Shown here in pieces: positions 9,647 to 61,003 of a DNA stretch of 64,000 nucleotides. Position numbers and translations under genes: made by a program. Origin of the DNA: Ornithinimicrobium tianjinense (lineage in GTDB: Bacteria > Actinomycetota > Actinomycetes > Actinomycetales > Dermatophilaceae); assembly GCF_014636495.1 (NCBI RefSeq), contig NZ_BMEM01000004.1, positions 159,994 through 223,993 of the forward strand, given 5' to 3'. Every line of letters begins with the position of its first letter. Positions within the stretch are counted from its first letter, which is position 1. Under the pieces are notes generated by a model. The model searched no databases. It saw nothing but the letters and a program-made list of their open reading frames with translations, and had not been told where the DNA came from.

Positions 9647-9727
9647 CCCCGGCCCGGGCGAGGGCGTCCAGGAAAGTCACAGCCGACCCCCAGCCCGCAC
9701 CGACCTCCCTGGTGTCTGATGGGGGCC

Positions 9728-45063: not shown

Positions 45064-46942
45064 TCACTTCCCGCATGAGCGCAGCCGGCAATTCGGGAAC
45101 CCAAGACCAGAGGTTGACACTTGCCGCCTCGGCAATCAGCGTGATGCATTCATCCTCGAGAGCAGGCGCCCTGCCAAACAACAACCGACCTCCTTGGATG
45201 CCCGGAAGCAGCCCAGCATCCACGCTGAGCGGCTCATGCCCACGTCGGGATAAGTGAACCAGCACACACTCATCCTGATGCTCACGGACAAAAACTACAA
45301 AATCATCATCGGCGGCGACCCATCTAAGACCTCCTCTCGTCAAGGCGGTACTGGACCGACGTACGTTGATCAGTGCCGCGTAGACCCTCCACAACTCACT
45401 GGACTTGTCGACCCCTGACCATGGCATCGGCTTTCGCCCGTCCTCCCCCCACTCGCCTTCCATTCCAACCTCGTCGCCATAGGTCATCATTGGCACACCG
45501 GGCATCGCGAAAAGAAACCCCGCAGCCACTTCGACCAACCGAACGTTCCCCACCAAGGTCGCAATCCGGGTGGTGTCGTGCGATCCTAAGAGGTTCCAAC
45601 TCGATCGTGTTACCTCCCAAGGCACTTGTGAAATGAACTCCTCCATCGTATCCACCACCGCCCTCCCACCCCTCTTCGGGACCAAAAGAGGCGACCCAAG
45701 GAAATTGGGAGCCTTGCGCGTGTCACGCAGCCAGGTCCATACCGGACGCGTGAACGCCGAGTAGTTCATGGCACCGTGCCAACCCGTCCCATCGACATCC
45801 CTTGCCAAGTCATGGCAGTGTTCAGCAATGACAACAGCATCGGGATTGGCTCGGACTGCAGCCTGCCGAGTTAGAAGCTGGACCTCCTCATAGTGGTCAT
45901 CTGCACCGTGCCTGCCGGACATATTCGCCACATCAATCCGCCATCCGTCCAACGAGAACGGGGGCCTCAGCCAACGCTCAACAACGCTCTCAGGACCATC
46001 GAACAACTTTGCGCGAAGCGAATCACTTGCGTAGTTCAATTTTGGTAGACTCGGAACACCTAGCCAGCTCGCGTATCCAGACGCACCGTGATTAGAACCG
46101 AAATAGTAGTGGTCACGCGCTTCTGCATCATCACCCGAAGAAGCAGATACAAACCACTCATGCGTGACACCGGTGTGGTTCGTGGTGAAGTCACCAATCA
46201 CCCGGAAGCCCCGTGCGTGTGCCTTTTCGGAAAGCCTCTGCAGCGCCGAACTGCCTCCCAGCAGCTCGTCGACCTCCGCGAATGTCCTCGCATCGTACCT
46301 GTGATTTGACTCACCCGGGAAAAATGGCGTGAGATACACAACGTTGACACCGAGCTCTTCAAGGTAATCCAATCTCTCTGCCACACCGTCAAGGTCTCCG
46401 CCGAATACTTGTGCACCGACCCCGGGCATCTCACCTTCCACGGGTTCGTTCCATTGCGCAGGCATGGCCCACCTGGGCCACGATCTATGGTCGGCAGCAG
46501 ACGACCGAGCGAAACGATCAGGAAAGATCTGGTATACAACAGCGTCCCCGAGCCACTTGGGCGCCGCACACGCAACCAGCCTGAAGTCGTCCGCGTCAGG
46601 AACGTCCCGCCAGTGCACACCAGTCCCGTTGTACCAAACGTACTCACCGTCCTTGATCTCCACAATAAATCGGTAATTAACTACAACATTTCGTTGCTCG
46701 ATCTGCACGCTCCACCAACTCTCGTGCCCGTTGCGAACCAACTCTCGAGCCCTTTCAAAGCGAGGCTCGTGATCCTTAAGGTAGCGCACATAGACACTGT
46801 GGACCTCACCGAGCCCAGCAGAGTGCGGTAAGCGCAGACGAAGAGTCACCGAGTCCCCGGGCGAAGGCCTCGACGGCGTGACGTACAGTTCCGAGCCGTC
46901 ATGATGCGGACGACAAATCCTGGTCAGAGAAGAACTAGTCAC
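45047..46942 (-). CDS. GH13 cyclomaltodextrinase/neopullulanase-like enzyme
   Basis: This 631-residue cytoplasmic alpha-glucanase has an N-terminal CBM34-like beta domain (about residues 10-125) then the GH13 barrel. Catalytic residues are the nucleophile Asp337 in DGWRIDVAN, acid/base Glu374 in VVIAEHCHD, and Asp456 in NLLGSHDTTR. The region GDFTTNHTG is conserved region I. The N-domain plus the lack of a signal peptide fit the neopullulanase/cyclomaltodextrinase group that opens imported cyclodextrins or hydrolyses maltodextrins. GTG at 46942 overlaps the malG-like stop (GTGA), which sets the start; the open frame upstream is not coding. Low-GC composition. Its 3' end overlaps the LacI-family gene. 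Confidence 0.9.
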   Translation of the reverse strand: MTSSSLTRICRPHHDGSELYVTPSRPSPGDSVTLRLRLPHSAGLGEVHSVYVRYLKDHEPRFERARELVRNGHESWWSVQIEQRNVVVNYRFIVEIKDGEYVWYNGTGVHWRDVPDADDFRLVACAAPKWLGDAVVYQIFPDRFARSSAADHRSWPRWAMPAQWNEPVEGEMPGVGAQVFGGDLDGVAERLDYLEELGVNVVYLTPFFPGESNHRYDARTFAEVDELLGGSSALQRLSEKAHARGFRVIGDFTTNHTGVTHEWFVSASSGDDAEARDHYYFGSNHGASGYASWLGVPSLPKLNYASDSLRAKLFDGPESVVERWLRPPFSLDGWRIDVANMSGRHGADDHYEEVQLLTRQAAVRANPDAVVIAEHCHDLARDVDGTGWHGAMNYSAFTRPVWTWLRDTRKAPNFLGSPLLVPKRGGRAVVDTMEEFISQVPWEVTRSSWNLLGSHDTTRIATLVGNVRLVEVAAGFLFAMPGVPMMTYGDEVGMEGEWGEDGRKPMPWSGVDKSSELWRVYAALINVRRSSTALTRGGLRWVAADDDFVVFVREHQDECVLVHLSRRGHEPLSVDAGLLPGIQGGRLLFGRAPALEDECITLIAEAASVNLWSWVPELPAALMREVSVRGG

Positions 46943-47868
46943 TTGACCGACCCCTGTGTTAGACCACCGATCAGTTGTCGCTGGAGGGCAAGGTAAAGCA
47001 GAACCACTGGCACAGACGCGATAAGCGCACCCGCAACAAACTGCCCAAATAGTCGGTCTTGATCCGCATTCCGCGTCTGCCACAGGCCGACAGCAAGCGT
47101 CTGGCTATCGACATTGGTGAGAAAAATGCTGGCAAGCAAGAACTCGCCCCAAAGTCCAACAAAGGCCAGCATGCCGACCGTCGCCAAGATGGGAGCGACG
47201 AGTCGAAGGGTCAGAGTGAAGAAGATCCGGGCATGCGAGGCACCGTCGACCTTTGCTGCCTCGTCGAGTTCCTTAGGAACAGTATCAAAGTAGCCCTTCA
47301 GGAGCCAAATGTTTGCACCCATGGCCCCCCCGAGGTAGACGAGAATTAGGCCTCCCAGCGTATTCAGGCCTACCCCAGGAAACAGCTCGCCCACCTTCGC
47401 AAATGTAAGATAGATTGCCGCGAAGCCAAGGATGGCGGGGAACATTTGTATGAGGAGTATTGCAAGGAGACCCACCCGGCGACCTTGCCACCGCAGTCGA
47501 GAAAATGCATAAGCCGCCGCAGCACCTAGGAGAACAGTGAAGATGGAGCCCAATCCGCAAATCAGAATCGAGTTTCGCATCCAAGTCCAAAACGGCCGGA
47601 TAGGGTCGTTGAAAAGCTTCTCAAAGTTCCTCACCCCTGGTGCCGATGGCAGCAGACCCGACGTGGAAAGGGTCCCAGCGTTATTGAATGCCGACGAAAC
47701 AATAAAGACTATTGGAAACAGTGCGAAGGCTAGAGCTAGCAAGGCCAATAGATGACGCCACCAGACACCGGTGTTGTACTGTGACCGCAGAAGCCCTCCT
47801 TTGGACTGATGGCCTGACCCAATCTTGGTCTCCGCTTGGAGCATGGCGCTGGGCTGAAAGTCAGTCAT
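46939..47868 (-). CDS. Maltose/cyclodextrin ABC transporter permease (MalG-like)
   Basis: This 309-residue inner-membrane permease has a hydrophilic N-terminus of about 35 residues and about six helices, beginning LLALLALAFALFPIVFIVSSAF. The EAA loop is seen in ELDEAAKVDGASHARIFFTLTLRLVAPILATVG. The C-terminal QRQLIGGLTQGSVK matches MalG family ends. It forms the heterodimeric channel with the MalF-like protein encoded immediately upstream (gap of one base). The next gene downstream overlaps by four bases. Strongly AT-richer than the flanking chromosome. Confidence 0.94.
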   Translation of the reverse strand: MTDFQPSAMLQAETKIGSGHQSKGGLLRSQYNTGVWWRHLLALLALAFALFPIVFIVSSAFNNAGTLSTSGLLPSAPGVRNFEKLFNDPIRPFWTWMRNSILICGLGSIFTVLLGAAAAYAFSRLRWQGRRVGLLAILLIQMFPAILGFAAIYLTFAKVGELFPGVGLNTLGGLILVYLGGAMGANIWLLKGYFDTVPKELDEAAKVDGASHARIFFTLTLRLVAPILATVGMLAFVGLWGEFLLASIFLTNVDSQTLAVGLWQTRNADQDRLFGQFVAGALIASVPVVLLYLALQRQLIGGLTQGSVK

Positions 47869-47869
47869 A

Positions 47870-49453
47870 TCAGTTCACATCCTCAAGGGCACTCGTCTGC
47901 CTAAAGCCCAAATAGCTAATCACTGCAACGATGATGAAGATAAACACCGAGATGGCGCCCGCGAATCCAAAGTTTGGCGTCGTACCCCCAATGGCGAGCC
48001 GGTAGGCCATCGTGATGAGGAGGTCCGTTGATCCGATCATACTCTGCCCTCCTTCGAAGGGCCCACCACCAGTAAGCAAGAAGATCAGCCCAAAGTTGTT
48101 GAAATTGAACGCAAAACTCGCAATGAGAAGCGGTCCGACGGCAACGAGAAGCAACGGCATGATGATGGAGCGGACCGTCCTGAACGCACTCGCGCCGTCG
48201 ATCGCGGCCGCCTCCCTCACGTCACTTGGTATCGCCTGGAGCGCCCCGGTGCACACGATGAACATGTATGGGAATCCGAGCCACAAGTTTGTGATCAGGA
48301 TTGCAATTTTGGCGAGTGTGCCATCCCCAAGCCAGTTGATGTTGAGGTGGAACAGCTCATTGATTAACCCAAAGTCACGGTTGTACATCGAGCCCCAAAC
48401 TAGAGCCGTGATGTATCCAGGCAACGCGTACGGCAGAATGAGCAGTGAACGGTAGACCGCCTTCCCCTTCAACCTGGGGTCATTCAACAGTAGCGCTAGG
48501 AACATTCCCAGCAGGAAGGTGGTAATCACAGACAGGAACGCGAAGACAAAGTTCCAGACGATGACGTTCACAAAGCCCGTTCGCAGCTGGGGATCAGTTA
48601 GCGCGCGGGTGTAGTTATCGAACCCAACGTTCTCCACCCAACCCTGCGGCAATCCGGACCCGACGCCGTCCCGTGGCACGAATCGAGCATCTTTGACGAC
48701 GAAGACTTGCCCTGTAACCTTGTCCTGGATGGTATCTGACGACGCGTCGTAGACGCGGGTTGCCTCGCCAATGAAGGCTTCCGAGAGTCCGATCATCTTG
48801 ATGCCTCCAGACTCGGTAGGCACGGCGAACTCCGACAGCTCAACGCTACGGGCGTTCACCTGGCTACCGGTCAGGACAGTATACCCGTCCGCCTCCGTAA
48901 TGCGCCCACGCTCACTGGTCTGCACGGATTCCGGATCCACGGGTTCTAATCCGTCAAGCGAGCCAGCATTGATGCTCCCGTCAGGGCTTGTCAACAAAAA
49001 GACAATTTCTCCAGTTGCCGGATCCTGCCCCTCGGGGATGGCGACGGCCAGTCCATACCTCTGAGAACCCTCCACCTGACGCACGGAGCTGGCCTCGATG
49101 GCCTGTATGGCTTCTTCCTTGCTCACCAGATGCCCGTACCCGTAGTTGGTAAAGGACATGCCGACCGTGTAGACGATAGGCCAGATCTGAAGAGCGAGAG
49201 TCAGGAGTATCCCGGGATAGAGGTACTTGAAGGGCACGCATCTACGCGTCGCGTAGACGATCAAGACGCCCATGGCAACGAACGCAGTGATGACAACGAA
49301 GAGCCAGTGGCCCGCTTCGGCCAGCACTGTGGCGGCGTAGAAGAGAATCGTGATAGATAGGAGAATCAGACCCCATTTGAGACTCTTCGCCCACCAGGGC
49401 TCTCCTCTCTCAAATTTGAGTTGCTGCTCAGTCTCCGGCGATTCCGTCACCAT
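47870..49453 (-). CDS. Maltose/cyclodextrin ABC transporter permease (MalF-like)
   Basis: This 527-residue permease is larger than typical sugar permeases because it carries the MalF-type extracytoplasmic loop (about residues 120-290), rich in hydrophilic residues, between the early helices and the core permease domain (FAFLSVITTFLLGMFLALLL onward). The EAA loop is DVREAAAIDGASAFRTVRSIIMPLLLVAVGPL. TNYGYGHLVSKEEAI is typical of actinobacterial MalF. ATG at 49453 is preferred; an upstream start at 49477 would add eight residues. It is 110 bases downstream of the binding-protein gene. Confidence 0.94.
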   Translation of the reverse strand: MVTESPETEQQLKFERGEPWWAKSLKWGLILLSITILFYAATVLAEAGHWLFVVITAFVAMGVLIVYATRRCVPFKYLYPGILLTLALQIWPIVYTVGMSFTNYGYGHLVSKEEAIQAIEASSVRQVEGSQRYGLAVAIPEGQDPATGEIVFLLTSPDGSINAGSLDGLEPVDPESVQTSERGRITEADGYTVLTGSQVNARSVELSEFAVPTESGGIKMIGLSEAFIGEATRVYDASSDTIQDKVTGQVFVVKDARFVPRDGVGSGLPQGWVENVGFDNYTRALTDPQLRTGFVNVIVWNFVFAFLSVITTFLLGMFLALLLNDPRLKGKAVYRSLLILPYALPGYITALVWGSMYNRDFGLINELFHLNINWLGDGTLAKIAILITNLWLGFPYMFIVCTGALQAIPSDVREAAAIDGASAFRTVRSIIMPLLLVAVGPLLIASFAFNFNNFGLIFLLTGGGPFEGGQSMIGSTDLLITMAYRLAIGGTTPNFGFAGAISVFIFIIVAVISYLGFRQTSALEDVN

Positions 49454-49563
49454 ATGTTTCACCTCAGGACAACACAACGTTTACGCCCGCATCCTCGCGA
49501 GCCGGGATGAGTGGGGTGGCCCGTCGGCCGCCAAGCCTGGGGTGGCGGCCGACGGTGGCTTTG

Positions 49564-50919
49564 TCAGCCGATATTCGCCACAATCTCCTTCTGGGCGTCC
49601 TTCAGTCGGGACTCTACATCGTCCCCGCCGATGATGTCCGCCGTGGCCTGGCCAAGAGGCTGCCAGACGGACGCCATCTGAGGAATGTTGGGCATCGGCG
49701 GAGCACCCTTGCCCGCTTCCGAGAATCCTGCAAGGTCCTCATCCTTCGCGGAGACCTCTTCCAAGGCTTCGAGCAGAGCTGGCGCCCGCTCGCCTGCGTT
49801 CTCATACATCGCCATTTGAAGATCAGCGGAGGGCACATACTGATTGACGAATTCCTGCGCCATCGCCGGGTTCTTGGCATCAGACGAGACGTAGAACATC
49901 TGGACGCCAAGGAACGGGAGCGGCTTGCCGCCATCTTGGAATTCCGGGATCGGCGAGATTGCGTAGTTGATACCGGCCTCGGCGGCACCCGTGGTGCTCC
50001 ACGGTCCAGTGATCATGTACGGCAGACGCCCCTCGGCGAACATTGCGGCCATCGCGGTCCCGTCCATGTTCACATTGAGGGCCTTCTCTTCGGCCAGCCA
50101 GGCCATCTTCTCCGCGCCCTTGATGGTTTCGGGGCTATCAATGATTACCTTGCTGGCGTCCCAGCCCCCGTCGGCATTCTGACCGAAGATTCCGCCCCCG
50201 TAAGCGTCCAGCCACGGGAAAGCGTGGTAGGCGTCACCCACGAGGCCCACCGGTGCACCCATGGGTGCATCGGCGTCGCCCGCTTCCACAAGCTCTGCTC
50301 CGTGCGCCACAAGTTCCTCCATGGTCGCAGGAACATTGGGGGCAAGGTCCGTGTTGCGCATGAGCGCCAGGTTCTCTGTCGCATACGGCACTCCGTAGAT
50401 CTGGCCGTCAAACTTTGTTGCCTCGATGGATTCGGGAACGAACTGTGCCTGAACATCATCGGCCAACGGCACTGGCGCAACGCTTCCGTTCTGCACGAAC
50501 TCGCCTAGCCAGTCATGCGCACCAACGATGATGTCTGGCCCCTGGCCGACCGTGTGAGCCTGACTGAACTGGGCGCGGACGTCCGTGGACACCTGTACCT
50601 GTGTCGTGATGCCGTACTCGTCCCCGAACTGCTTCGCGAACTCCTTGAGGGCCTCTGCCCGATCATTGTCCGCCCAGATCACAAGCTCGGCGTTAGCGTC
50701 ACGGACGGGCGCTTCAGTGGACTCAGCGTCGTCCGCGGGAGCAGCCTCTACGTCGGTCTCTGCCGCACTGTCTTCGGCGGTATTTTCAGCAGCGTCACCG
50801 GCTGATGCAGTGTCGCCCGTGGATGAGGGTGTCTCGGTCGTGTTGCTGCCTCCGCCGCAGGCAGACAACAGCAAAGCCGCAGCCGCAGAAACGGCAACGG
50901 CACGAGTGGTGCGCTTCAT
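49564..50919 (-). CDS. Maltose/maltodextrin/cyclodextrin-binding lipoprotein (MalE-like)
   Basis: This 451-residue solute-binding lipoprotein has a signal with lipobox LLLSAC (acylated Cys about residue 21) and a long Ser/Thr/Glu/Ala linker (about 25-75). The MalE fold begins at ELVIWADNDRAEALKEFAKQF. The WLGEFVQNGSVAPV segment, IYGVPYATENLALMRNTDL and MITGPWSTTGAAEAGINYAISPIPEF match MalE-type binding proteins with aromatic sugar contacts. GGAGAA precedes the ATG. A candidate LacI-type operator lies about 115 bases upstream, in the 167-bp gap after the amylase gene, suggesting its own promoter. Confidence 0.94.
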   Translation of the reverse strand: MKRTTRAVAVSAAAALLLSACGGGSNTTETPSSTGDTASAGDAAENTAEDSAAETDVEAAPADDAESTEAPVRDANAELVIWADNDRAEALKEFAKQFGDEYGITTQVQVSTDVRAQFSQAHTVGQGPDIIVGAHDWLGEFVQNGSVAPVPLADDVQAQFVPESIEATKFDGQIYGVPYATENLALMRNTDLAPNVPATMEELVAHGAELVEAGDADAPMGAPVGLVGDAYHAFPWLDAYGGGIFGQNADGGWDASKVIIDSPETIKGAEKMAWLAEEKALNVNMDGTAMAAMFAEGRLPYMITGPWSTTGAAEAGINYAISPIPEFQDGGKPLPFLGVQMFYVSSDAKNPAMAQEFVNQYVPSADLQMAMYENAGERAPALLEALEEVSAKDEDLAGFSEAGKGAPPMPNIPQMASVWQPLGQATADIIGGDDVESRLKDAQKEIVANIG

Positions 50920-51032
50920 GGTTCTCCTTCGAACTGTGTGGCCGTGCCCTCGCCGTCGTCTGTCGGGAGGGCACTTATGGACGTCTTGTCCCATGCACGA
51001 CGTAGCCCAAGCATGGGGCCGTGAAGAATCGC

Positions 51033-51044
51033 GCAAAATCTTGC
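51033..51044. promoter_or_regulatory. Candidate LacI/MalR-type operator upstream of the malE-like gene
   Basis: GCAAAATCTTGC (GCAAGATTTTGC on the minus strand) is an inverted repeat with GCAA/TTGC arms. It differs at two positions from the 12-mer found in the divergent promoter region at 53302. LacI-family regulators of maltose genes in actinomycetes bind CTTGCA-containing repeats, so the adjacent LacI-type protein is the likely ligand. Confidence 0.55.
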
Positions 51045-51086
51045 AGAGTGTGCCAGTTGCCCGTCTGCGACAACCAAGCCCGCACA

Positions 51087-53228
51087 CTACGGCTGCCAGG
51101 TATACACCGGCGAGTCGGTTGCGCCAGTGTTTGGAACCAGATATGTTCGGTTGTTACCCCCCTCCCATGTCACGGTCCCGTCAGAGGACTTCTTGATCAG
51201 CTTAAACTCGACTTGCTCGCCCCCAGGCATACTAACTGGGAGGAACCACTCTGGGTATTCTGGGTTGAAGAATGGGCCGACTGCTTCAGCAGGATCCCAA
51301 GCACCCAGTTCTGCGACGTTACCAACAAGGTATATTTGCTCGCCTGGAACCGTCGTGACATTCGCATGAACGATAACCTGTGTCTGCGATCCTGTTTTTA
51401 CCTTGTACGCAAAAGAGTTGGACTGGCCCATGTCATTTTGGACAACAACGGGCTGTTCGCCGGAACCCACTGCAGGCACTGTGAAGATTATCTGATCGTC
51501 GCTCCAACACTCGATGGCAGCCGCAACACCACCTACGGTAACAGTACCTGGCATTCCGAATGCGCTTCCGTCTATGGAAACGCTATACCCAGGCGCACCC
51601 TGCGTAGGCCCCACCGCGCCGACCTTGGGGTTTCCGCCAACAGGCTCCACATAGGACCAAACACCAATCTCACTCGGTCCGAGCTCGTACGTCGCGACCG
51701 AACCATCAGCATTGGCCACCAGGGGCCCACCGCTGTGCGTTCCCGTTAGGACGTCTTGATGGGTACCGGCTGGGAGATCTGTGGTCAAGCCAGTCAGATT
51801 ATAGGTCGCCCCACTCCGGTTAAGCGCAACTACGACAACACTTCCATAGAACTTTCGCTGCACCACGAGGACGTCCTGGTTCACCCACCGAGTTGTGGTT
51901 CCGCCATAACGGAGGGCCGGATTCTCGGCCCGAAGATCCGCCAGTTTCCGGATCATTTGATAGGCAGGAGTTGTTGTGTCGAAGCTGCCCATCCACTTAC
52001 GACCAGCGTCGCCATTTGACCCAGTCATGTACTGCTCGGTGCCGTAATAGATCACTGGCGTCCCTCGACTTGTCAACAGAAACGCTAACGCACTGTGGAG
52101 AACTCCTTGGTTGCCCTGAATGCTAGCGAGACGCGACTTATCGTGACTGTCCAACCATGTGACCGCATCATTTTCGTACTTGTAGTCGGCCGCAGTGTAT
52201 TCGAGCATGTGGGACAGGTCGTTCATATCCTTCGAGAATGATCCAAAGACATCCCGAGAGATGTTTGCAAACTCGAAGTCCAGGATGTTGATCCCCGTTG
52301 CTTCAGGCGAGGTTCGGTAGTCATCGTACTTCGGATCTGGCGAGCCGATGAAATACTCCCCGAAATGAAAAGCGCCGCCTTGTCGGTTGATTTCGTCTGC
52401 AAAGACAGTCCTGAAAGCTTCGGTCTGATGTAGAGTCGCATCGTTGCGGATTCCGTCCACGCCGTGAGCAAGCCAAGTACTCATGGCGTCTGTCAAGTAG
52501 CGCTGGACCGCGTCATTCTCGGTCGACAGGTCCGCCAATTTTGTTAGGTCTCGATATTGGAAGTCGTAGTCGCTAGTTTGATCGTTCCCACGCTCGCCTA
52601 GATGGTGGAAATAGCCCTGCGTATCCGAGGAATAGCGCCCGACGAGTAGCCCGTCGCGGTAGAATCCGGCGTTTTCCACGCTATCGACATGATTCGTGTG
52701 ATTCGGGGCGAAATCGATGATAACTTTGATGCCGTGCGCATGGGCCGCCTCGACTAATGCATCAAAGTCCGCCCAAGACCCCCAATGCTCGTCCGGGACG
52801 AAGTAGTCCTTGGCCCAGAATCCGTGGTAACCGTTGTAGTAATTCCCGTTCTCAAGGTAGGCATCATCGAGGTTGTTGTACGGAGGGGAAATCCATACTG
52901 CCCCGATGCCCATGCCTGCGAGGTACGGCATTTTTTGCGCGAGCCCCTGCCAATCTCCGCCGAAGTATCTATTGATGTCTGTTCGTGCTGGGTCGTATGC
53001 GTTTGGCTTGCCATATGGGTTATTATTGGCGGGGTTACCATCGGCGAAGCGATCGGTGAGAACTTGGTAGATGACATCGCCCTCATAGTTGTTCCTGTTC
53101 CCCACACTGAGCGCGGAGCAATCTCCCGCAGCATCTGCTGTCATGCTCGGTCGAACCATTCCTGCCGCCACCGTCAGTGGGCCAGCACTGATCATGGCGA
53201 GGACTAGCGTCTTGGCGATTCGCTTCAT
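51087..53228 (-). CDS. Secreted cyclodextrin glucanotransferase-like GH13 enzyme
   Basis: This 713-residue exported enzyme has the five-domain CGTase plan. A signal peptide (about residues 1-34) is followed by barrel domains A/B with NYEGDVIYQVLTDRFADGNP and GGDWQGLAQKMPYLAGMGIGAVWIS, domain C, an IPT/TIG domain D (PKVGAVGPTQGAPGYSV), and a starch-binding CBM20 domain E (IYLVGNVAELGAWDP, EFKLIKKSSDGTVTWEGGNNR). Catalytic residues are Asp263 (GIRNDA), Glu291 (HFGEYF) and Asp363 (SHDKS). Tyr225 aligns with the central aromatic residue that marks CGTases over amylases. Maltogenic amylase activity is the main alternative. First gene of the low-GC cluster. Confidence 0.85.
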   Translation of the reverse strand: MKRIAKTLVLAMISAGPLTVAAGMVRPSMTADAAGDCSALSVGNRNNYEGDVIYQVLTDRFADGNPANNNPYGKPNAYDPARTDINRYFGGDWQGLAQKMPYLAGMGIGAVWISPPYNNLDDAYLENGNYYNGYHGFWAKDYFVPDEHWGSWADFDALVEAAHAHGIKVIIDFAPNHTNHVDSVENAGFYRDGLLVGRYSSDTQGYFHHLGERGNDQTSDYDFQYRDLTKLADLSTENDAVQRYLTDAMSTWLAHGVDGIRNDATLHQTEAFRTVFADEINRQGGAFHFGEYFIGSPDPKYDDYRTSPEATGINILDFEFANISRDVFGSFSKDMNDLSHMLEYTAADYKYENDAVTWLDSHDKSRLASIQGNQGVLHSALAFLLTSRGTPVIYYGTEQYMTGSNGDAGRKWMGSFDTTTPAYQMIRKLADLRAENPALRYGGTTTRWVNQDVLVVQRKFYGSVVVVALNRSGATYNLTGLTTDLPAGTHQDVLTGTHSGGPLVANADGSVATYELGPSEIGVWSYVEPVGGNPKVGAVGPTQGAPGYSVSIDGSAFGMPGTVTVGGVAAAIECWSDDQIIFTVPAVGSGEQPVVVQNDMGQSNSFAYKVKTGSQTQVIVHANVTTVPGEQIYLVGNVAELGAWDPAEAVGPFFNPEYPEWFLPVSMPGGEQVEFKLIKKSSDGTVTWEGGNNRTYLVPNTGATDSPVYTWQP

Positions 53229-53301
53229 TGGGACTCTCCTTCGCTCCTCAGGCCACTGGGCGGCCCCGCCAAGCCACTATGGCAGAACTTGCAACCGGCG
53301 C

Positions 53302-53313
53302 GCAAGAGCTTGC
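53302..53313. promoter_or_regulatory. Candidate LacI/MalR-type operator in the divergent promoter region
   Basis: GCAAGAGCTTGC is an inverted repeat (GCAAG, 2-bp centre, CTTGC) located 74 bases upstream of the CGTase-like start and 175 bases upstream of the ABC ATPase start. A second, looser CTTGC..GCAAG pair overlaps it. The resemblance to the site at 51033 suggests one regulator for both transcripts. Confidence 0.6.
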
Positions 53314-53487
53314 TGCAGACGACTGTCGCGGCCTACCTGCTACGGTGATCCACGTCACCGGCAGCGTTGCCCTGGCCCGCTCAGATGCGGTCCATTGCCG
53401 CCGACGGCGACTGGCTCCGCGGCGCCGTCGCGGGGTTCCTTTACGACGGATCGTCCGGCACGTACCTGCCGGTGAAGGAGAACCACC

Positions 53488-54573
53488 ATGGCAACCGTGA
53501 CCTATGACAAGGCCACCCGCATCTACCCCGGCGCCGACACACCCTCGGTCGACCAGCTCGACATCGAGGTCGCCGACGGCGAGTTCCTCGTGCTCGTCGG
53601 GCCGTCGGGCTCCGGCAAGTCGACCGCGCTGCGCATGCTGGCCGGCCTGGAGGAGGTGAACGGCGGGCGCATCCTCATCGGCGACCGCGACGTCACCCAC
53701 ATGCCGCCCAAGGACCGCGACGTGGCGATGGTCTTCCAGAACTACGCGCTCTACCCGCACATGTCGGTGGCCGACAACATGGGCTTCGCGCTCAAGATCG
53801 CCGGCAAGCCCAAGGCCGAGATCCGCCAGCGCGTCGAGGAGGCCGCCAAGATCCTCGACCTGGAGCCCTACCTGGAGCGCAAGCCCAAGGCGCTCTCCGG
53901 TGGTCAGCGTCAGCGCGTCGCCATGGGTCGCGCGATCGTGCGTCAGCCGCAGGTCTTCCTGATGGACGAGCCGCTGTCCAACCTCGACGCCAAGCTGCGC
54001 GTGCAGACCCGCACCCAGATCGCCTCGTTGCAGCGCCGTCTCGGCGTCACCACCGTCTACGTCACCCACGACCAGGTCGAGGCGATGACGATGGGCGACC
54101 GCGTCGCGGTGCTCAACTTCGGCGTGCTGCAGCAGGTCGACACCCCGCGGCGGATGTACGACCACCCCGACAACGTCTTCGTCGCCGGCTTCATCGGCTC
54201 CCCCGCCATGAACCTCATGTCGGTGCCGGTCGCCGACGGCGGCCTCAAGCTCGGCGACTACGTGCAGCCCGTCGAGCGCGACGTGCTGGGCAAGGCCACG
54301 GGCAGCGAGGTCGTCCTGGGCGTGCGCCCCGAGGACCTGGAGATCTCCGACTCCGGCCGCGGCCTGGCGATCGAGGTCGACGTGGTCGAGGAGCTCGGCG
54401 CGGACGCCTACATCTACGGCTCCATGCCCGGCCAGGACGCCGGCGACAAGCCGTTCATCGCCCGCGTGGACGGCCGGACCCCGCCGGCCAAGGGCGAGGT
54501 CGTGCACTTCCAGCCCAAGGGCGAGCACCTGCACATCTTCAACGCCGAGAGCGGCGAGCGCATCAGCGACTGA
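53488..54573 (+). CDS. Multiple-sugar ABC transporter ATPase (MsmK/UgpC type)
   Basis: This 361-residue ATPase powers sugar importers that lack their own ATPase. It has Walker A LVGPSGSGKSTALRMLAGLE, signature ALSGGQRQRVAMGRAIVR, Walker B VFLMDEPLSNLDAKLR, H-loop VYVTHDQ, and C-terminal TOBE/OB regulatory domains (about 240-361). No ATPase gene exists in the low-GC cluster, so this divergently transcribed gene is the natural partner of the MalEFG-like system and may serve others. Its base composition is native high GC, unlike the cluster. AAGGAG precedes the ATG. Confidence 0.95.
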   Translation: MATVTYDKATRIYPGADTPSVDQLDIEVADGEFLVLVGPSGSGKSTALRMLAGLEEVNGGRILIGDRDVTHMPPKDRDVAMVFQNYALYPHMSVADNMGFALKIAGKPKAEIRQRVEEAAKILDLEPYLERKPKALSGGQRQRVAMGRAIVRQPQVFLMDEPLSNLDAKLRVQTRTQIASLQRRLGVTTVYVTHDQVEAMTMGDRVAVLNFGVLQQVDTPRRMYDHPDNVFVAGFIGSPAMNLMSVPVADGGLKLGDYVQPVERDVLGKATGSEVVLGVRPEDLEISDSGRGLAIEVDVVEELGADAYIYGSMPGQDAGDKPFIARVDGRTPPAKGEVVHFQPKGEHLHIFNAESGERISD

Positions 54574-54675: not shown

Positions 54676-55923
54676 ATGGCGATCGACATCACGGCGATCT
54701 CGCCGAACCCGGCGCTGCTCGACCTCCCGTGGAGCGTCCCGCTCGAGGACTGGCCCGAGGAACACCTCGCCGCGCTCCCCCGCGGCATCTCGCGGCACGT
54801 GGTCCGATTCGTGCGGCTGGGCCAGGAGGTCATCGCGGTCAAGGAGATCAGCGAGCCACTGGCGCGCCGGGAGTTCCAGACGCTGCGCAACCTGCGCCGG
54901 CTCGGACAGCCTGCTGTCGAGCCTCTGGCCGTGGTCTCGGGGCGGGTGGCCGGGGACGGCACCGCCCTCGATGCCTGCCTCATCACCCGGCACCTTCGCT
55001 TCTCCCTCCCGTACCGCGCCGTCTTCTCCCAGCGTCTGCGCGACGACACCGCCCGCCGCACCCTTGACGCGCTCGCGGTCCTGCTCGTCCGGCTCCACCT
55101 GGCCGGGGTCTTCTGGGGTGACGTGTCGCTGTCCAACACGCTGTTCCGCCGGGACGCCGGCGACTTCGCCGCCTATCTCGTCGACGCCGAGACCGCCGAG
55201 ATCCATCCGGAGCTCTCCCGTGGCCAGCGCGAGCACGACCTCTTCGTCGCCCACGGCAACATCGCAGGCGAGCTGATGGACCTCGAGGCCGGCGGGCACC
55301 TCGACGAGGGCGAGGACCCGATCGAGATCGCCAACCGGATCATGCACCGCTACGACCTCCTCTGGAACGAGCTGACGAGCGAGGAACGCTTCGAACGCGG
55401 TGACCGGTGGAAGGTCGACGAGCGGATCCGGCGGCTCAACAACCTCGGGTTCGACGTCGACGAGCTGGAGATGAGCACCGACCTCGACGGGACCACGATC
55501 CGCATCCAGCCCAAGGTGGTCGACGCCGGCCACCACTCCCGTCGGCTCATGCGCCTCACCGGTCTGGACGTGGAGGAGAACCAGGCTCGGCGGCTGCTCA
55601 ACGACCTCGACTCCTACCGCGCGGCCACCCACCGACAGGGCGACGACGAGGAGCTCGTGGCGCACGCCTGGCTCAACCAGATCTACGAGCCGATCACCCG
55701 CACCGTCCCACCGCAGCTGCGCGACAAGCTCGAACCCGCCGAGATCTTCCACGAGCTGCTCGAGCACCGGTGGTACCTGTCCGAGCGGGCCGGGCACGAC
55801 ATACCGATCGAGGACACCGTGAGGGACTACGTCGCGACGGTCCTACCCGGCCGGCCGGACGAGGTGACCGTGCTCGGCGTCGACACCGAGGAGATCCCCA
55901 TCACCGCGATCCTGGACTCGTAG
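54676..55923 (+). CDS. DUF4032 / lipopolysaccharide-kinase-like protein
   Basis: This 415-residue protein has an N-terminal kinase-like fold. The sequence RFVRLGQEVIAVKEISEPLARREFQTLRNLRRLG holds a Lys/Glu pair, and VLLVRLHLAGVFWGDVSLSNTLFRRD replaces the HRDxxxxN loop with WGDxxxxN. AAYLVDAETAEIHPEL has an Asp in the DFG position. The C-terminal half (ERFERGDRWKVDERIRRLNNLGFDVDELEM onward) matches DUF4032. Such proteins are common in actinobacteria and have no proven substrate. A TAGGCT -10 box ends six bases before the ATG, which suggests a leaderless mRNA. It is 160 bp upstream of the protease-nuclease fusion. Confidence 0.82.
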   Translation: MAIDITAISPNPALLDLPWSVPLEDWPEEHLAALPRGISRHVVRFVRLGQEVIAVKEISEPLARREFQTLRNLRRLGQPAVEPLAVVSGRVAGDGTALDACLITRHLRFSLPYRAVFSQRLRDDTARRTLDALAVLLVRLHLAGVFWGDVSLSNTLFRRDAGDFAAYLVDAETAEIHPELSRGQREHDLFVAHGNIAGELMDLEAGGHLDEGEDPIEIANRIMHRYDLLWNELTSEERFERGDRWKVDERIRRLNNLGFDVDELEMSTDLDGTTIRIQPKVVDAGHHSRRLMRLTGLDVEENQARRLLNDLDSYRAATHRQGDDEELVAHAWLNQIYEPITRTVPPQLRDKLEPAEIFHELLEHRWYLSERAGHDIPIEDTVRDYVATVLPGRPDEVTVLGVDTEEIPITAILDS

Positions 55924-56082
55924 CGCCCAAGGGTTGCGAGCCCGGCTCGTGCGCGGGCCCAGTGCCCGCCGGCAGCCATGGGAGCAGGGCGCGCAGGCTC
56001 GGCGGCCCCTTGTGGGAAGTCAGCCAAGGGCGGGAGCATGAGGTGACGCGAGGCCCGCGCCGTCCACCCGACGAGGAGCGCC

Positions 56083-58392
56083 ATGAAGACCCCCTACCCC
56101 GGTGACCAGGTGCTCGACATCGACCAGGCGCTGGCCGCGGCTACCCGCTACGAGAAGAAGCTGCCCGAGGCGAGCGCCGATCCTGCACCGCCCGCGGACC
56201 CCCAGTCCCGGAGGCGCAAGAAGTACGTCCTGGAGTCCCTGAGCGCCGAACGGGCACGCGCGATCGTGGCTGAGGCGGAGGCCCACCCCTCGGGGCCCGA
56301 GCCGGTCGCGGCCGCGCCGGCCCCTGGACCCGCACCGACCGCCGAGCCGACGACCGTCCCACCGTCCGAGGGCCCCTCGCCCGTCATCGTCGTGCCACCG
56401 GCGACGGTCCTCGCCGAGACCCCGACGACGGCCCAGGACACGCTGTCGACCTTGGCGCAGGAGCGCATCATCGGCTCCTCCGACCTGCAGGACATCAACT
56501 ACCTCGAGCTGGCCGTCGCGGTCGCGCGCGCCGTCTGCCGGATCCGCATCGGGGCGGGCGCCGGCACCGGCTTCCTGGTCGGTCCGGGGCTGGTGATGAC
56601 CAACAACCACGTGATCCGCTCCGCGGACGCCGCCCTCACCGCCGAGGCGCAGTTCGACTACCAGGAGAACGCCTCCGGCGAGCTGCTCCCGGTCCAGTCC
56701 TTCCGCTTCGACCCGGCCCGGTTCTTCGTCACGGACCCGGTCCTCGACTTCACCGTCGTGGCCGTCCAGCCCACCTCCGGCAGGGGCGTGCCGGTCTCGG
56801 GCTACCCCTGGGTGCAGCTCATCGCGACGCTCGGCAAGGCCGAGGCGGGCGAGCCGGTCAACATCGTCCAGCACCCCCGGGGCGGCCTGAAGCAGGTGGC
56901 GCTGCGCAGCAACGACGTCATCCTCATCCCCAGCGGGAAGTCCGACTTCCTCTACTACACGACGGACACCGAGCCCGGCTCCTCGGGCTCCCCCTGCTTC
57001 AACGACCAGTGGGAGCTCATCGCGCTGCACCACTCCGGCGTGCCCCGCACCGACGGCGACCGGATCCTGCGTCGCGACGGCACGCCCTGGGACCAGGCGG
57101 TCGACGACCCCGGCCTCATCGACTGGATCGCCAACGAGGGCGCGCGCGTCTCGGCGATAGTCGCCTCGCTGAGGGCGATGGACCTCGCCCAGCTGCCCGC
57201 GGACCTGCGCGAGGAGATGCTCACCGCGACCCCGCCCAACCCGGTCGAGCTCGCCCGCCGCGGCGCGCCGGGGCCGGAGCGTATGCCGTCGCCCTCGACC
57301 GTGGTCGCGGCCGGGGCTGGCGCCGGGGCGGGGGTGGCCGTGCCCGGGCCGGGCGGGTCGGTCTCGTTCACCGTCCCCCTGACCGTCACCGTGTCCCTGG
57401 GGACGGCCGCGGCACCGGGCGGCGCGCTCCCGCTCGGTGCCGCGGGAGCGTCGACGGACCTCCCGCCGGACTCCACCCTGCAGGAGGTCGCTGTGGACGC
57501 CGACTGGGGCGGCCGCCGCGGCTACGACCCGGGCTTCCTCGGCATACGGGTCCCCCTCCCCCGGCTCTCGCGGGCGATGAAGGCCCGCAGCGTGGTGGTG
57601 CCGGAGCGGTTCCGGGTCGGCCGCGACCGCCACGTGCTCGCCTACCACCACTTCTCGCTCGCCATGAACTCCGAGCGCCGGTTCGCGTGGTACAGCGCCG
57701 CCAACGTCGACGGCCAGGCCCGCCCGGACCTGCCCAGGCGCCGCGACCGCTGGTTCGTGGACCCGCGCATCGACGACCCCCGCGCTCCCGTCCACCAGCT
57801 GGGCGAGGACCTGTACGCGGCGAAGAACACCGACCGCGGGCACCTGACACGCTACGCCGACGTCGCCTGGGGCACGGTGGAGGAGGCGATGGCCGCGGCC
57901 GCCGACTCCTTCCACTTCACCAACGCCTGCCTGCAGCTGGACGGCTTCAACCAGCGCACCGCCCGTTGGCAGGGCATCGAGCAGTTCCTGCTGGAGCGCA
58001 AGGCCACCGCGGAGCAGCGGCGCATCAGCGTCGCCACCGGCCCGGTGTTCCGCGCGAGCGACCCGGCATACCGCAACGACCACATGGACGCGCCGGCGCG
58101 GATCCCCCTCGCCTTCTGGAAGGTGTGCGCCCTGGTGCGCCCGGACGGGACGCTGTCGGCCACGGCGTTCGTGCTGGACCAGCAGGACATCACCGGCCTG
58201 CCCGGCTTCGAGGCCACCCTCGACGTCGCGACGGTCCAGACCACCGTGGCCGCGGTCGAGGAACTCACGGGGCTCACCTTCCCGGTCCTGCGCGACCACG
58301 ACCACCTGGCCGCCGGCGGGGACCCGGGCACCCTCGAGGTCTCGGGACGCAGGGTGATCCCGATCCGGGCCTACGACGACATCATGATCTGA
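56083..58392 (+). CDS. Trypsin-like protease fused to DNA/RNA non-specific endonuclease
   Basis: This 769-residue cytoplasmic protein has no signal peptide or membrane helix. Residues 1-120 hold helices and a Pro/Ala linker. Residues about 125-365 are a trypsin-like peptidase with His176 (VMTNNHVIR), Asp222 (VLDFTVVAV) and Ser301 (EPGSSGSPCF); the lead-in ERIIGSSDLQDINYLELA is conserved in related bacterial peptidases. After a Gly/Ala-rich linker (400-450), residues about 475-769 form a NUC1/NucA-type endonuclease with the DRGH motif at 584-587 (NTDRGHLTRYAD), and FTNACLQLDGFN supplies the metal-binding Asn region. The pairing suggests a protease-gated nuclease of a conflict or cell-death system; this is inference. 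Confidence 0.88.
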   Translation: MKTPYPGDQVLDIDQALAAATRYEKKLPEASADPAPPADPQSRRRKKYVLESLSAERARAIVAEAEAHPSGPEPVAAAPAPGPAPTAEPTTVPPSEGPSPVIVVPPATVLAETPTTAQDTLSTLAQERIIGSSDLQDINYLELAVAVARAVCRIRIGAGAGTGFLVGPGLVMTNNHVIRSADAALTAEAQFDYQENASGELLPVQSFRFDPARFFVTDPVLDFTVVAVQPTSGRGVPVSGYPWVQLIATLGKAEAGEPVNIVQHPRGGLKQVALRSNDVILIPSGKSDFLYYTTDTEPGSSGSPCFNDQWELIALHHSGVPRTDGDRILRRDGTPWDQAVDDPGLIDWIANEGARVSAIVASLRAMDLAQLPADLREEMLTATPPNPVELARRGAPGPERMPSPSTVVAAGAGAGAGVAVPGPGGSVSFTVPLTVTVSLGTAAAPGGALPLGAAGASTDLPPDSTLQEVAVDADWGGRRGYDPGFLGIRVPLPRLSRAMKARSVVVPERFRVGRDRHVLAYHHFSLAMNSERRFAWYSAANVDGQARPDLPRRRDRWFVDPRIDDPRAPVHQLGEDLYAAKNTDRGHLTRYADVAWGTVEEAMAAAADSFHFTNACLQLDGFNQRTARWQGIEQFLLERKATAEQRRISVATGPVFRASDPAYRNDHMDAPARIPLAFWKVCALVRPDGTLSATAFVLDQQDITGLPGFEATLDVATVQTTVAAVEELTGLTFPVLRDHDHLAAGGDPGTLEVSGRRVIPIRAYDDIMI

Positions 58393-58504
58393 CACCAGCG
58401 ACGTGGGGCCGGACACTCACTCGACGTTCGGGACCCCTTCCGCGGGGCCAGCGGCGGCCGCGGCGCGGCGCGTCCTCGAGCGCTCTTGCCCGGGGAGGGC
58501 CCCG

Positions 58505-59467
58505 TCAGTCGCGCTTGCGGCCGACGGAGATCTCGTAGAGAGCGACCGCGGTCGCGATGCCGGCGTTGAGGGACTCGGTCACCCCGGAGATCGGGATCGA
58601 GACGATCTGGTCGCAGGTCTCGCGGACGAGCCGGGACAGGCCCTTGCCCTCGGACCCGACGACGACCACGAGCGGTCGGTCGGAGAGTGCGAGGCCGGGC
58701 AGCTCGACGTCGCCGTCACCGTCGAGGCCGATGACGAAGAAGCCGGCCTTGCGGTAGGCCTCGAGCGCCCGGGTCAGATTGGTCGCTTGCGCCACGGGGA
58801 TGCGGGCGGCCGCGCCGGCGGCCGTCTTCCACGCCGACGCGGTCATCCCGACCGAGCGCCGCGACGGCACGACCACGCCGTGGCCGCCGAAGGCGCCGAC
58901 CGAGCGGATGATCGCGCCGAGGTTGCGCGGGTCGGTCACCCCGTCGAGGGCGACGATGAGCGGGAGCCCGGGCAGCTCGACGTCGAGCAGGTCGTCGGGG
59001 TGGGCGTACTCGTAGGCGGGCACCTGCAGCGCCAGCCCCTGGTGCACGGCGCCGTCGGTGATCCGGTCCAGCTCGGTGCGCGGGGTCTCCAGCACGGCGA
59101 CGCCCTGCTCGGTCGCCAGCGTGATCGACTCCTTGACCCGGTCGTCGGACTCCATCCGCGAGGCCACGTAGAGCGTGCTCGCCGGGATGTGGGTGCGCAG
59201 CGCCTCGAGGACGCTGTTGCGCCCCGCCACGACCTCCGAGGAGCCCTTCGTGCTGCCGCGGCGGGCCGGTGCCCGGCGCGCCGCCGCCCCGGCGGCCTTG
59301 GCGTCGCGCGCCGCCCGACGCGCGGCCGGGTGACCGACCCGGTCCTCGGCTCGCGGGGTCGGTCCCTTGCCCTTCAGCTGCTTGCGGCGCTGGCCGCCCG
59401 AGCCGACGACCGCGCCCTTCTTGTTGCTCGTCCGTGCGCCGCGTCGACGCTGGTTGCCGGTAGCCAT
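58505..59467 (-). CDS. rlmB: 23S rRNA 2'-O-ribose methyltransferase (RlmB/TrmH, SPOUT)
   Basis: This 320-residue protein methylates a 23S rRNA guanosine ribose (G2251 in E. coli). The N-terminal 70 residues are a very basic extension (KQLKGKGPTPRAED, AARRAARDAKAAGAAARR) seen in actinobacterial members. The substrate-binding domain starts at VVAGRNSVLEALRT. The SPOUT knot motifs are VALDGVTDPRNLGAIIRSVGAFG, VVVGSEGKGLSRLVRETCD, and IPISGVTESLNAGIATAVALYE. The gene follows cysS by 17 bases on the same strand, a gene order seen often in actinobacteria. Confidence 0.95.
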   Translation of the reverse strand: MATGNQRRRGARTSNKKGAVVGSGGQRRKQLKGKGPTPRAEDRVGHPAARRAARDAKAAGAAARRAPARRGSTKGSSEVVAGRNSVLEALRTHIPASTLYVASRMESDDRVKESITLATEQGVAVLETPRTELDRITDGAVHQGLALQVPAYEYAHPDDLLDVELPGLPLIVALDGVTDPRNLGAIIRSVGAFGGHGVVVPSRRSVGMTASAWKTAAGAAARIPVAQATNLTRALEAYRKAGFFVIGLDGDGDVELPGLALSDRPLVVVVGSEGKGLSRLVRETCDQIVSIPISGVTESLNAGIATAVALYEISVGRKRD

Positions 59468-59484
59468 GTCTGTCTCCTCTGCCC

Positions 59485-60942
59485 TCAGCGCAGCGACCAG
59501 CGCGCGCCGGAAGGGGTGTCCTCGATCACGACGCCGAGCGCCGTGAGCCGGTCGCGGATGGCGTCGGCCTCCGCGAAGTTCTTCTCCGCGCGGGCGGTCC
59601 CCCGTGCCTGCAGCCGCTCCTCGACGAGCGCCGCGAGCACCTGCGTGGCTGCGTCCGAGCCAGCGGGCTCGGCCCCCCAGACCTCGTCCAGGGGGTTGAC
59701 CCCGAGGACGTCGAGCATGGCGAGCAGCTGCAGCAGCGAGCGCCGGGTGGCCTCCTGGTCCACGGAGTCGGGGTGCGCGTCGATCGCGCGGTTGCCCTCG
59801 CGGACCGCGCCGAAGACGACCGCGAGCGCGCCCGGCACGTTGACGTCGTCGTCGAGCGCCTCGCGGAAGGCGGGCGGGAAGGCCTCCACCGCCGGGAGCG
59901 CGCGCGCCTGCGCGACCAGCTGGTCAGAGGGCTCGCCGACGACCTCGCGAGCGCGCGCGACATACCCCTCGATCCGTTCGACCGCGGCGAGCGCCTCCTC
60001 GAACGACCCCTCTGCGTACTCGATGGTGGAGCGGTAGTGGGCGGCGCCGAGGTAGTAGCGCAGCACCAGCGGGCGGACGGTGCGAGCCAGCTCGAGCACC
60101 GCCAGCGCGTTGCCGAGCGACTTGCCCATCTTGGCGCCCTTGACCGTCACCCAGGCGTTGTGCAGCCAGAAGTTGGCAAAACCGAGCCCAGCCGCGCGCG
60201 ACTGCGCCTGCTCGTTCTCGTGGTGCGGGAAGCGCAGGTCGACGCCGCCGCCGTGGATGTCGAAGGCGTCACCGAGGTACTTGCGCGCCATCGCCGAGCA
60301 CTCCAGGTGCCAGCCCGGACGGCCGCGACCGTAGGGCGTCGGCCAGGACGCCGTCTCCGGCTCAGCCGACTTGGACCCCTTCCACAGCGCGAAGTCGCGG
60401 GGGTCGCGCTTGCCGCGGGGGTCGGCGTCGGTCGCCGGCTCCATGTCCTCGATCGACTGCCGGGTCAGCTCGCCATAGGCGGGCCAGGAGCGCACGTCGA
60501 AGTAGACGTCGCCCGAGCCGTCCTCGGCGGCGTAGGCGTGGCCGCGCTCGATGAGCAGCTGGATCAGCTCCAGCTGCTCGGTGATGTGCCCGGTCGCGCG
60601 GGGCTCGTAGGTCGGCGGCAGCACGCCGAGCAGCTCCAGCGCCTCGGTCGTCTCCCGCTCGTGCAGGTAGGACCACGCCCACCACGGCTGCCCCGCCTCG
60701 GCCGACTTGGCCAGGATCTTGTCGTCGATGTCGGTGACGTTGCGGACGAGCGTGACGTCATACCCGTGCCCGCGCTCGAGCCAGCGCCGCAGGATGTCGA
60801 AGGCGACCGCGAAGCGGACGTGCCCGATGTGCGGGCTGCCCTGCGTGGTGAGACCGCAGATGTAGATGCCGACCTTGCCGGGCTCGAGCGGCGCGAAGAG
60901 GCGCAGCTCGCGGGAGGCGGTGTCGTACAGGTGCAGGGTCAC
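59485..60942 (-). CDS. cysS: Cysteine-tRNA ligase (CysS)
   Basis: CysS charges tRNA-Cys. The protein of about 485 residues has the class I motifs [19 protein letters not shown] (HIGH, with zinc-binding Cys before it), [21 protein letters not shown] with further zinc ligands, [10 protein letters not shown], and the KMSKS-equivalent [11 protein letters not shown]. Position 60942 ([15 protein letters not shown]) is preferred over the GTG two codons upstream because relatives start here. The C-terminal DALR-like domain ends in [25 protein letters not shown]. It is longer than the related mycothiol enzyme MshC, which lacks this C-terminal domain. rlmB follows after 17 bases. Confidence 0.96.
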
Positions 60943-61003
60943 CCGCACAGGTTACCGGGGGTATGCCGCGCCGCCCGCCTCGTGCGTCGCTAGCGTGACG
61001 ACC

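Follow-up and report, generated by a model that had tools for sequence, protein, structure and literature searches.

Results

A lone gene for a trypsin-NucA fusion

The window, i.e. the whole 64,000-nucleotide stretch of DNA that was analysed, lies on contig C4 of a 3.3 Mb host genome in 12 contigs and has a GC content of about 0.74 over most of its length; from this GC content and the nearest relatives the host is taken to be an actinobacterium. At 56083..58392 on the forward strand (+) the ORF list, its translation and Pfam identified a gene for a trypsin-NucA fusion of 769 aa. The gene starts with ATG, 4 nt downstream of a gaggag sequence (56073-56078), its frame is intact and its GC3 of 0.96 is of the coding type; an antisense ORF (56020-58416) overlaps it. 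The encoded protein carries a Trypsin_2 protease domain (aa 161-315, 56563..57027, +; Pfam, E 9.4e-23, 82 bits versus a curated cut-off of 27.6) and an Endonuclease_NS (NucA/EndoG-like) domain (aa 509-733, 57607..58281, +; Pfam, E 6.5e-36, 124.5 bits versus a curated cut-off of 23). The two-domain ORF of the original prediction was thus recovered at its exact coordinates, with both domains far above their cut-offs. The catalytic residues of the protease, located in alignment A1 (see below), are His176 (56608), Asp222 (56746) and Ser301 (56983), and the DRGH motif of the nuclease occupies aa 584-587 (57832..57843; translation and residue check), all on the + strand.

The remaining parts of the protein, likewise on the + strand, are less uniform. 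The N-terminal region (aa 1-126, 56083..56460) is Pro-rich in its second half and poorly conserved (47% identity to L002 and 31% to L003, the nearest relatives), and it is followed by a conserved segment ahead of the protease, E-R-I-I-G-x-x-D-L...N-Y-L (aa 127-150, 56461..56532; A1). The protease region closes with an NEGxRxS motif (aa 351-357, 57133..57153; A1), and the linker to the nuclease (aa 366-472, 57178..57498) is rich in Gly, Ala and Pro and contains a hydrophobic strand motif, VPLTVTVSL (aa 431-439, 57373..57399). The Gly/Ala-rich linker that had been predicted is therefore present, and so is the predicted helical and Pro-rich N-terminal region, its helix according to a low-quality model only. 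The AlphaFold model, made with three sequences, had a mean pLDDT of 29 and a pTM of 0.22 and was not used as evidence. By sequence, the closest solved structures were the Spl-type serine protease SplE for the protease part (5mm8, E 4.5e-8) and mitochondrial EndoG for the nuclease part (6m3f, E 3.5e-5). For the protease part, PHROGs returned one family, of unknown function, and PADLOC returned weak matches to RT-Protease_XI and PDC-M35A (best E 1e-4).

Upstream, the fusion gene is preceded by a gene for a DUF4032 protein (54676-55923, +) and, before that, one for a MalK/UgpC-type ATPase (53488-54573, +). Downstream it is met by two convergent genes, one for a SpoU-type RNA methylase (58505-59467, -; rlmB in what follows) and one for cysteinyl-tRNA synthetase (cysS, 59485-60948, -). 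None of these neighbours, nor a GH31 gene that is also among them, is an operon partner of the LypA/LypB type, and Pfam found no further peptidase copies in the flanking ORFs. We recognised no sensor, defence, immunity or partner gene next to the fusion. Among ten flanking ORFs searched with PADLOC, an alpha-amylase matched a GlgB-type model and the MalK-type ATPase matched mad3 and mad8, and the other eight had no match at 1e-5; the matched models are generic enzymes. The fusion gene thus occupies a solitary locus: the expectation that no immunity gene adjoins it was borne out, and the proposed membership in a defence island was not, as the window locus shows no recognisable island. A forward-strand (+) ORF at 58403-60037 was rejected as an operon partner, having no Pfam match and being antisense to two real genes, rlmB and cysS. 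Elsewhere in the window, the stretch at 46000-54000 has a GC content of 0.56-0.60 and looks as if it had been acquired from elsewhere; it encodes a MalE-like binding protein with two adjacent ORFs, and a CBM20-bearing alpha-amylase.

The fusion gene is an accessory insertion

All 9 genomes of the family that were compared contain the DUF4032 gene, and 8 of the 9 keep the malK-DUF4032 and rlmB-cysS order without the fusion in between; the stretch extracted from the ninth gave no match to rlmB or cysS. The DUF4032-rlmB interval, at 55923-58505 in the window, measures 74 to about 2640 bp in these eight genomes (L056-L060, L062-L064), with variable content and conserved flanks, and its larger versions contain short ORFs, several of them Gly/Pro/Gln-rich. 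The absence of the fusion from all eight genomes that keep both flanks marks it as an accessory gene, inserted where the interval is variable.

The host genome held a single match to the fusion protein and three Trypsin_2 places. Another Trypsin_2 protein is encoded within the window at 9719-10972 (+), with the match at about 10112-10555.

A gene found alone could be an orphan that is silent here, parted from a sensor that was a second protease or LypA/LypB-like, or it could work with partners elsewhere in the genome. The neighbourhood, with no recognisable partner, agrees with this explanation. A search of the host genome for the second protease that accompanies L002 gave no match, although this search had no positive control and so shows little, and an EAD1 search of the genome gave no match but is uninformative, as it also missed all 14 controls. 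However, the frame is intact, the GC3 is of the coding type and the catalytic residues are conserved; moreover, some relatives (for example L003 and L054) also have no evident partner among the listed adjacent genes, not every neighbour there being assigned. We therefore consider an orphan improbable.

Catalytic residues and protease-side motifs are conserved

Of the 20 proteins in alignment A1, 18 carry the nuclease, and the other 2 (L042, L043) end in an alpha/beta-hydrolase-like part instead. The set was drawn from 15 plasmid matches (of 114 matching records), 2 MAG loci, 2 genome loci and the window protein; single-domain relatives and L044/L065, in which the nuclease is joined to another protease, were left out. 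Besides A1 we examined 7 further window-type fusions (six more plasmid matches and L004). His176, Asp222 and Ser301 were invariant in 20/20 rows of A1, and the RGH of DRGH was kept in all 18 nuclease rows, in 3 of which the first Asp was replaced. In the further fusions both the triad and GH were kept in 7/7, the Arg of DRGH was Lys or Tyr in 3/7, and one protein (L074) carried FH where other fusions carry FN or YN. Hence the catalytic His of the nuclease was retained in 25/25 window-type fusions examined, and the catalytic residues are conserved across relatives from five phyla. The intact His-Asp-Ser triad and DRGH nuclease of the original prediction are in place, and the loss of catalytic residues from most relatives, which would have told against it, was not clearly seen, the residues being kept in nearly all.

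Glu127 and four residues of NEGxRxS (N351, E352, R355 and S357) were also invariant in 20/20 rows, and together they mark a specific protease subfamily. We do not claim a trypsinogen-like activation through the 'R-IIG' of the conserved segment, because the catalytic Ser is preceded by Ser, with Asp at that position in 0/20 rows, and the Arg is also not conserved. Between the window protein and L002, identity was 77% in the protease region, 73% in the nuclease, 47% in the N-terminus and 44% in the linker.

These figures bear on the question of which domain does the work. The protease could itself be the active output and cleave another host protein, with the nuclease kept for folding, stability or a secondary role. 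This is suggested by Caulobacter LypC, in which, according to the parts of the report available to us (PMC13236601), the S296A mutation abolishes lysis whereas the nuclease mutations H471A and N505A do not, deletion of the nuclease destabilised the protein, and a C. endophyticus homologue has no nuclease. The invariance of the protease-side motifs in 20/20 rows, two of them with another C-terminal part, points in the same direction. Yet between the window protein and L002 the nuclease is nearly as well kept as the protease, and the nuclease His persists in every window-type fusion examined, so that we regard a protease-only output as possible but unlikely.

A strand motif recurs in the linkers

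A strict strand pattern, [VIL]-P-[LI]-x-[VI]-[ST]-..., was present in 9/18 A1 nuclease fusions, at a distance of 31-51 residues ahead of the nuclease region; outside the pattern the linkers align poorly. In 5000 shuffles the mean was 0.01 and the maximum 1, against the 9/18 observed, a comparison that is not a p-value as the pattern was chosen post hoc. Outside A1 the strict pattern occurred in 3/7 proteins (L071, L073, L075), with a near match in L004 (LPLELTLRL), these seven being partly kin of A1 (L071 and L073 by the tree; L075 resembles L018). On the protease tree the pattern falls in the window clade, in the L018/L071 clade and in most of the L019/L022/L050/L052/L055/L073 clade, and the strict form was not found in an 8-row clade (L016, L017, L020, L021, L051, L053, L054, L070). 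The strand motif is a candidate latch, docking or cleavage element and offers a concrete residue-level target.

In its most far-reaching form, this observation would make the protein a self-contained, one-gene, protease-gated nuclease. Sensing, proteolytic switch and nuclease would share a single chain that has spread between phyla with no partners, and the linker strand would be the latch, or the cleavage or recognition element, by which the nuclease is held silent before the protease acts. We put this forward as a rather doubtful extension.

Partners and neighbours of the relatives

L042 and L043 combine the same protease module with a different C-terminus in place of the nuclease; the two align together, and weak, sub-threshold lipase/hydrolase matches were obtained for L042 and none for L043. 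In L045 the protease gene overlaps a gene with a similar start ('LLIHGRSQQ') and weak alpha/beta-hydrolase matches. Other kin of the protease carry TPR-S (L046, L047) or EAD1 (L066 and a second, more distant one, L049). As judged from these proteins, the protease module is common to relatives with different partners. In L067, a 586-codon frame (-) contains an alpha/beta-hydrolase-like sequence (by eye) followed by the nuclease; this may be a fusion, or the frame may be open by coincidence at high GC.

The neighbours of the relatives also varied. In L002 a second Trypsin_2 gene begins 42 bp after the fusion stop. An S1/P1 nuclease gene adjoins the fusion, or lies one small gene away, in three rhizobial relatives (L016, L022, L051); a PLD gene lies near L016 and L070, a patatin gene near L070, SLOG near L022, SIR2-HerA 1.3 kb on from L052 and a NACHT gene about 6.5 kb from L021. 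The annotation around the plasmid relatives shows no CARD/NLR pair, which does not prove absence, the L015, L050, L051 and L073 loci being unannotated and the scan of neighbours not exhaustive.

The fusion is patchily distributed

Counts from the genome samples are lower bounds, as only some candidates per genome were scored. In the phylum sample at least 11 of 296 genomes matched: the window-type two-domain protein was present in the host genome and in G200, another trypsin with nuclease in G086, a trypsin without nuclease in G013 and G161, and a weak protease match that proved to be an EAD1-trypsin in G182, and the other five genomes had a nuclease without a trypsin motif. In the order sample at least 32 of 149 genomes matched, at 34 places, 20 of them with loci; these were the fusion of the host, a single trypsin (G396) and 18 nucleases with no trypsin motif in frame, several of which sit in long frames. 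In the family sample, in which at least 6 of 59 genomes matched, the window-type fusion occurred only in the host. The others had an EAD1-trypsin (G473), nuclease matches (G485, G442), a weak protease match (G484), or the nuclease fused to a different protease-like N-terminus, SNWHV...GGDSGS, without a Pfam protease match (G474). This type of N-terminus, fused to the same type of nuclease, was seen in the same family at L065:1258-3123 (-). The one congener sampled had no match. Among plasmids, 114 of 72,556 records gave a match; five rhizobial genera account for 55 of the 114, and one place covered at least 80% of the query. Phage carriage was dropped as a candidate: a scan of viral_contigs gave 44 pattern matches, none of them a relative, which says little either way.

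The nearest relatives were L002 (a Propionibacterium MAG, 67% in A2) and L003 (a Solibacteraceae MAG, 53%). In the protease tree, from which two rows (L049 and the second L053 protease) are absent because their His was not found by the motif search, they form with the window protein a starred clade of 3 (100/99), a clade that would cross phyla if the MAG contigs are rightly binned.

Export signals and secretion genes

By simple hydropathy, a crude measure, the window protein has no signal-like or membrane stretch: the best 15-aa mean in its first 50 residues was 0.33 and its best 19-aa window 1.34. This agrees with the prediction that it lacks an export signal, in that no hydrophobic N-terminus is seen. 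The highest 15-aa means within the first 50 residues in A1 were moderately hydrophobic (1.29 in L051 and 1.19 in L016), and in L015 a mean of 1.64 was reached over 19 residues at aa 67. Among the nuclease rows of A1, 2/18 are flanked by type II secretion genes, both from Cupriavidus plasmids (L019, L055), where the fusion gene sits within the gsp operon, between gspF and gspG. In L071 a gene for an HlyD-type type I secretion adaptor lies about 2.8 kb away and a calcium-binding protein is encoded within 3 kb. A constant association of homologues with secretion genes, which would also have spoken against the original prediction, is thus not clearly found, with these two A1 rows and L071 as the instances and several loci unannotated.

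Endonuclease_NS enzymes are often secreted, and the protein might be a degradative or nutritional enzyme, possibly exported non-classically or by a dedicated secretion system. The gsp operons around both Cupriavidus relatives, the adaptor and calcium-binding protein of L071 and the N-terminal stretches of L016 and L051 would fit such a role. However, the window protein has no evident signal, secretion genes stand beside few relatives, and in other members of its family the protease is accompanied by EAD1 or TPR-S; we consider this role highly improbable.

Discussion

We propose that the gene probably encodes a lone, accessory and most likely cytosolic trypsin-NucA fusion, a single-gene member of the NucA-trypsin conflict systems that serves as a protease-gated death or defence effector. 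For this reading speak the presence of both domains with conserved catalytic residues, matching published systems; the clade of the window protein with L002 and L003, the second Trypsin_2 of L002 fitting the description of one such system (System 3, below); a protease module with varied partners, some relatives lying near S1/P1, PLD, patatin or SIR2-HerA genes; and the absence of the fusion from the same place in 8/8 flank-keeping genomes of the family. Against it speak the lack of a recognisable adjoining sensor or defence gene, the dispensability of the LypC nuclease residues for lysis, the type II secretion operon around 2/18 nuclease rows and the type I gene by L071, and the replaced Arg of DRGH in 3/7 further fusions.

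As an effector, the protein would be soluble and latent, silent until a signal of stress or infection. A trigger, perhaps clustering through the N-terminal region, would turn on the protease, whose target, in cis or in trans, would be the linker, other proteins or both; the nuclease would then be deployed and damage nucleic acid, and the cell would die or arrest. Release of the nuclease by self-cleavage of the linker is plausible by analogy, as a step in which the protease frees the nuclease is analogous to HamM activation. The protease may nevertheless matter more than the nuclease, as LypC suggests.

The architecture itself is not new. Tryp-Endonuclease_NS was listed in 2008 for Fusobacterium nucleatum NP_604177.1 under nucleic acid metabolism (PMC2605481, in the part available), i.e. 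the same two kinds of Pfam domain in one protein as in the window, a likeness of the listed architecture. The available part of Kaur et al. 2020 (PMC7159879) describes a 'System 3', with 45 organisms in its Table 1, in which NucA and trypsin are fused or in an operon and a proteolytic cascade is predicted to deploy the nuclease; the system is mentioned again in PMC8195603. System 3 and the window protein share a NucA/Endonuclease_NS domain and a trypsin-like peptidase in one protein. System 3 has been reported mostly from alphaproteobacteria, with several peptidases and, in some cases, EAD1 or STAND genes; the window, by contrast, has a single gene by itself, and the nearest relatives of its genome are Actinomycetota. 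Further peptidase copies, which System 3 allows and does not require, are absent beside the window gene and present in L002; a subset of System 3 has EAD1 or STAND/Death-like partners, and for EAD1 the search described above, which missed its controls as well, gave no match. The protease-effector fusion of bacterial conflict systems that had been predicted thus matches System 3 and the layout of LypC, itself a third earlier description of a trypsin-NucA fusion (PMC13236601). In the part of the literature covered, we found no account of a solitary version, and the window gene is a sound case of a known kind of protein, of interest chiefly because it stands alone.

Activation of nucleases by proteases is emerging as a theme in bacterial immunity. 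In Hachiman and AVAST, trypsin-like proteases activated by oligomerisation unlock MBL-type pro-nucleases (Tuck 2025, PMC12799240, as far as available); activation of a latent nuclease by a trypsin-like protease is the likeness to our reading. There, the nuclease, a metallo-beta-lactamase-type enzyme, is always encoded by its own gene and the protease is fused to other defence proteins, whereas the window nuclease is of the Endonuclease_NS type and is fused. A single-gene version, if true, would add a very simple case and make a convenient model for studying the gating of a latent nuclease.

LypC (ACL94044.1) is the one studied protein with the layout of the window protein. It belongs to the CARD-NLR-like lysis system LypABC, reported in 2026, and consists of a peptidase (1-335) and an endonuclease (354-662) (PMC13236601, available parts). 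Both LypC and the window protein, which is longer (769 versus 662 aa), have an N-terminal trypsin-like peptidase, a flexible linker and a C-terminal endonuclease, and neither is in a defence island, the LypABC operon lying outside such islands. LypC, which showed no interaction with LypA or LypB in two-hybrid assays, is encoded in an operon with the CARD-peptidase LypA and the NLR-like LypB, whereas the window gene has no recognisable counterpart of either. A single-gene fusion also bears on the question left by LypC, namely the purpose of the fused nuclease.
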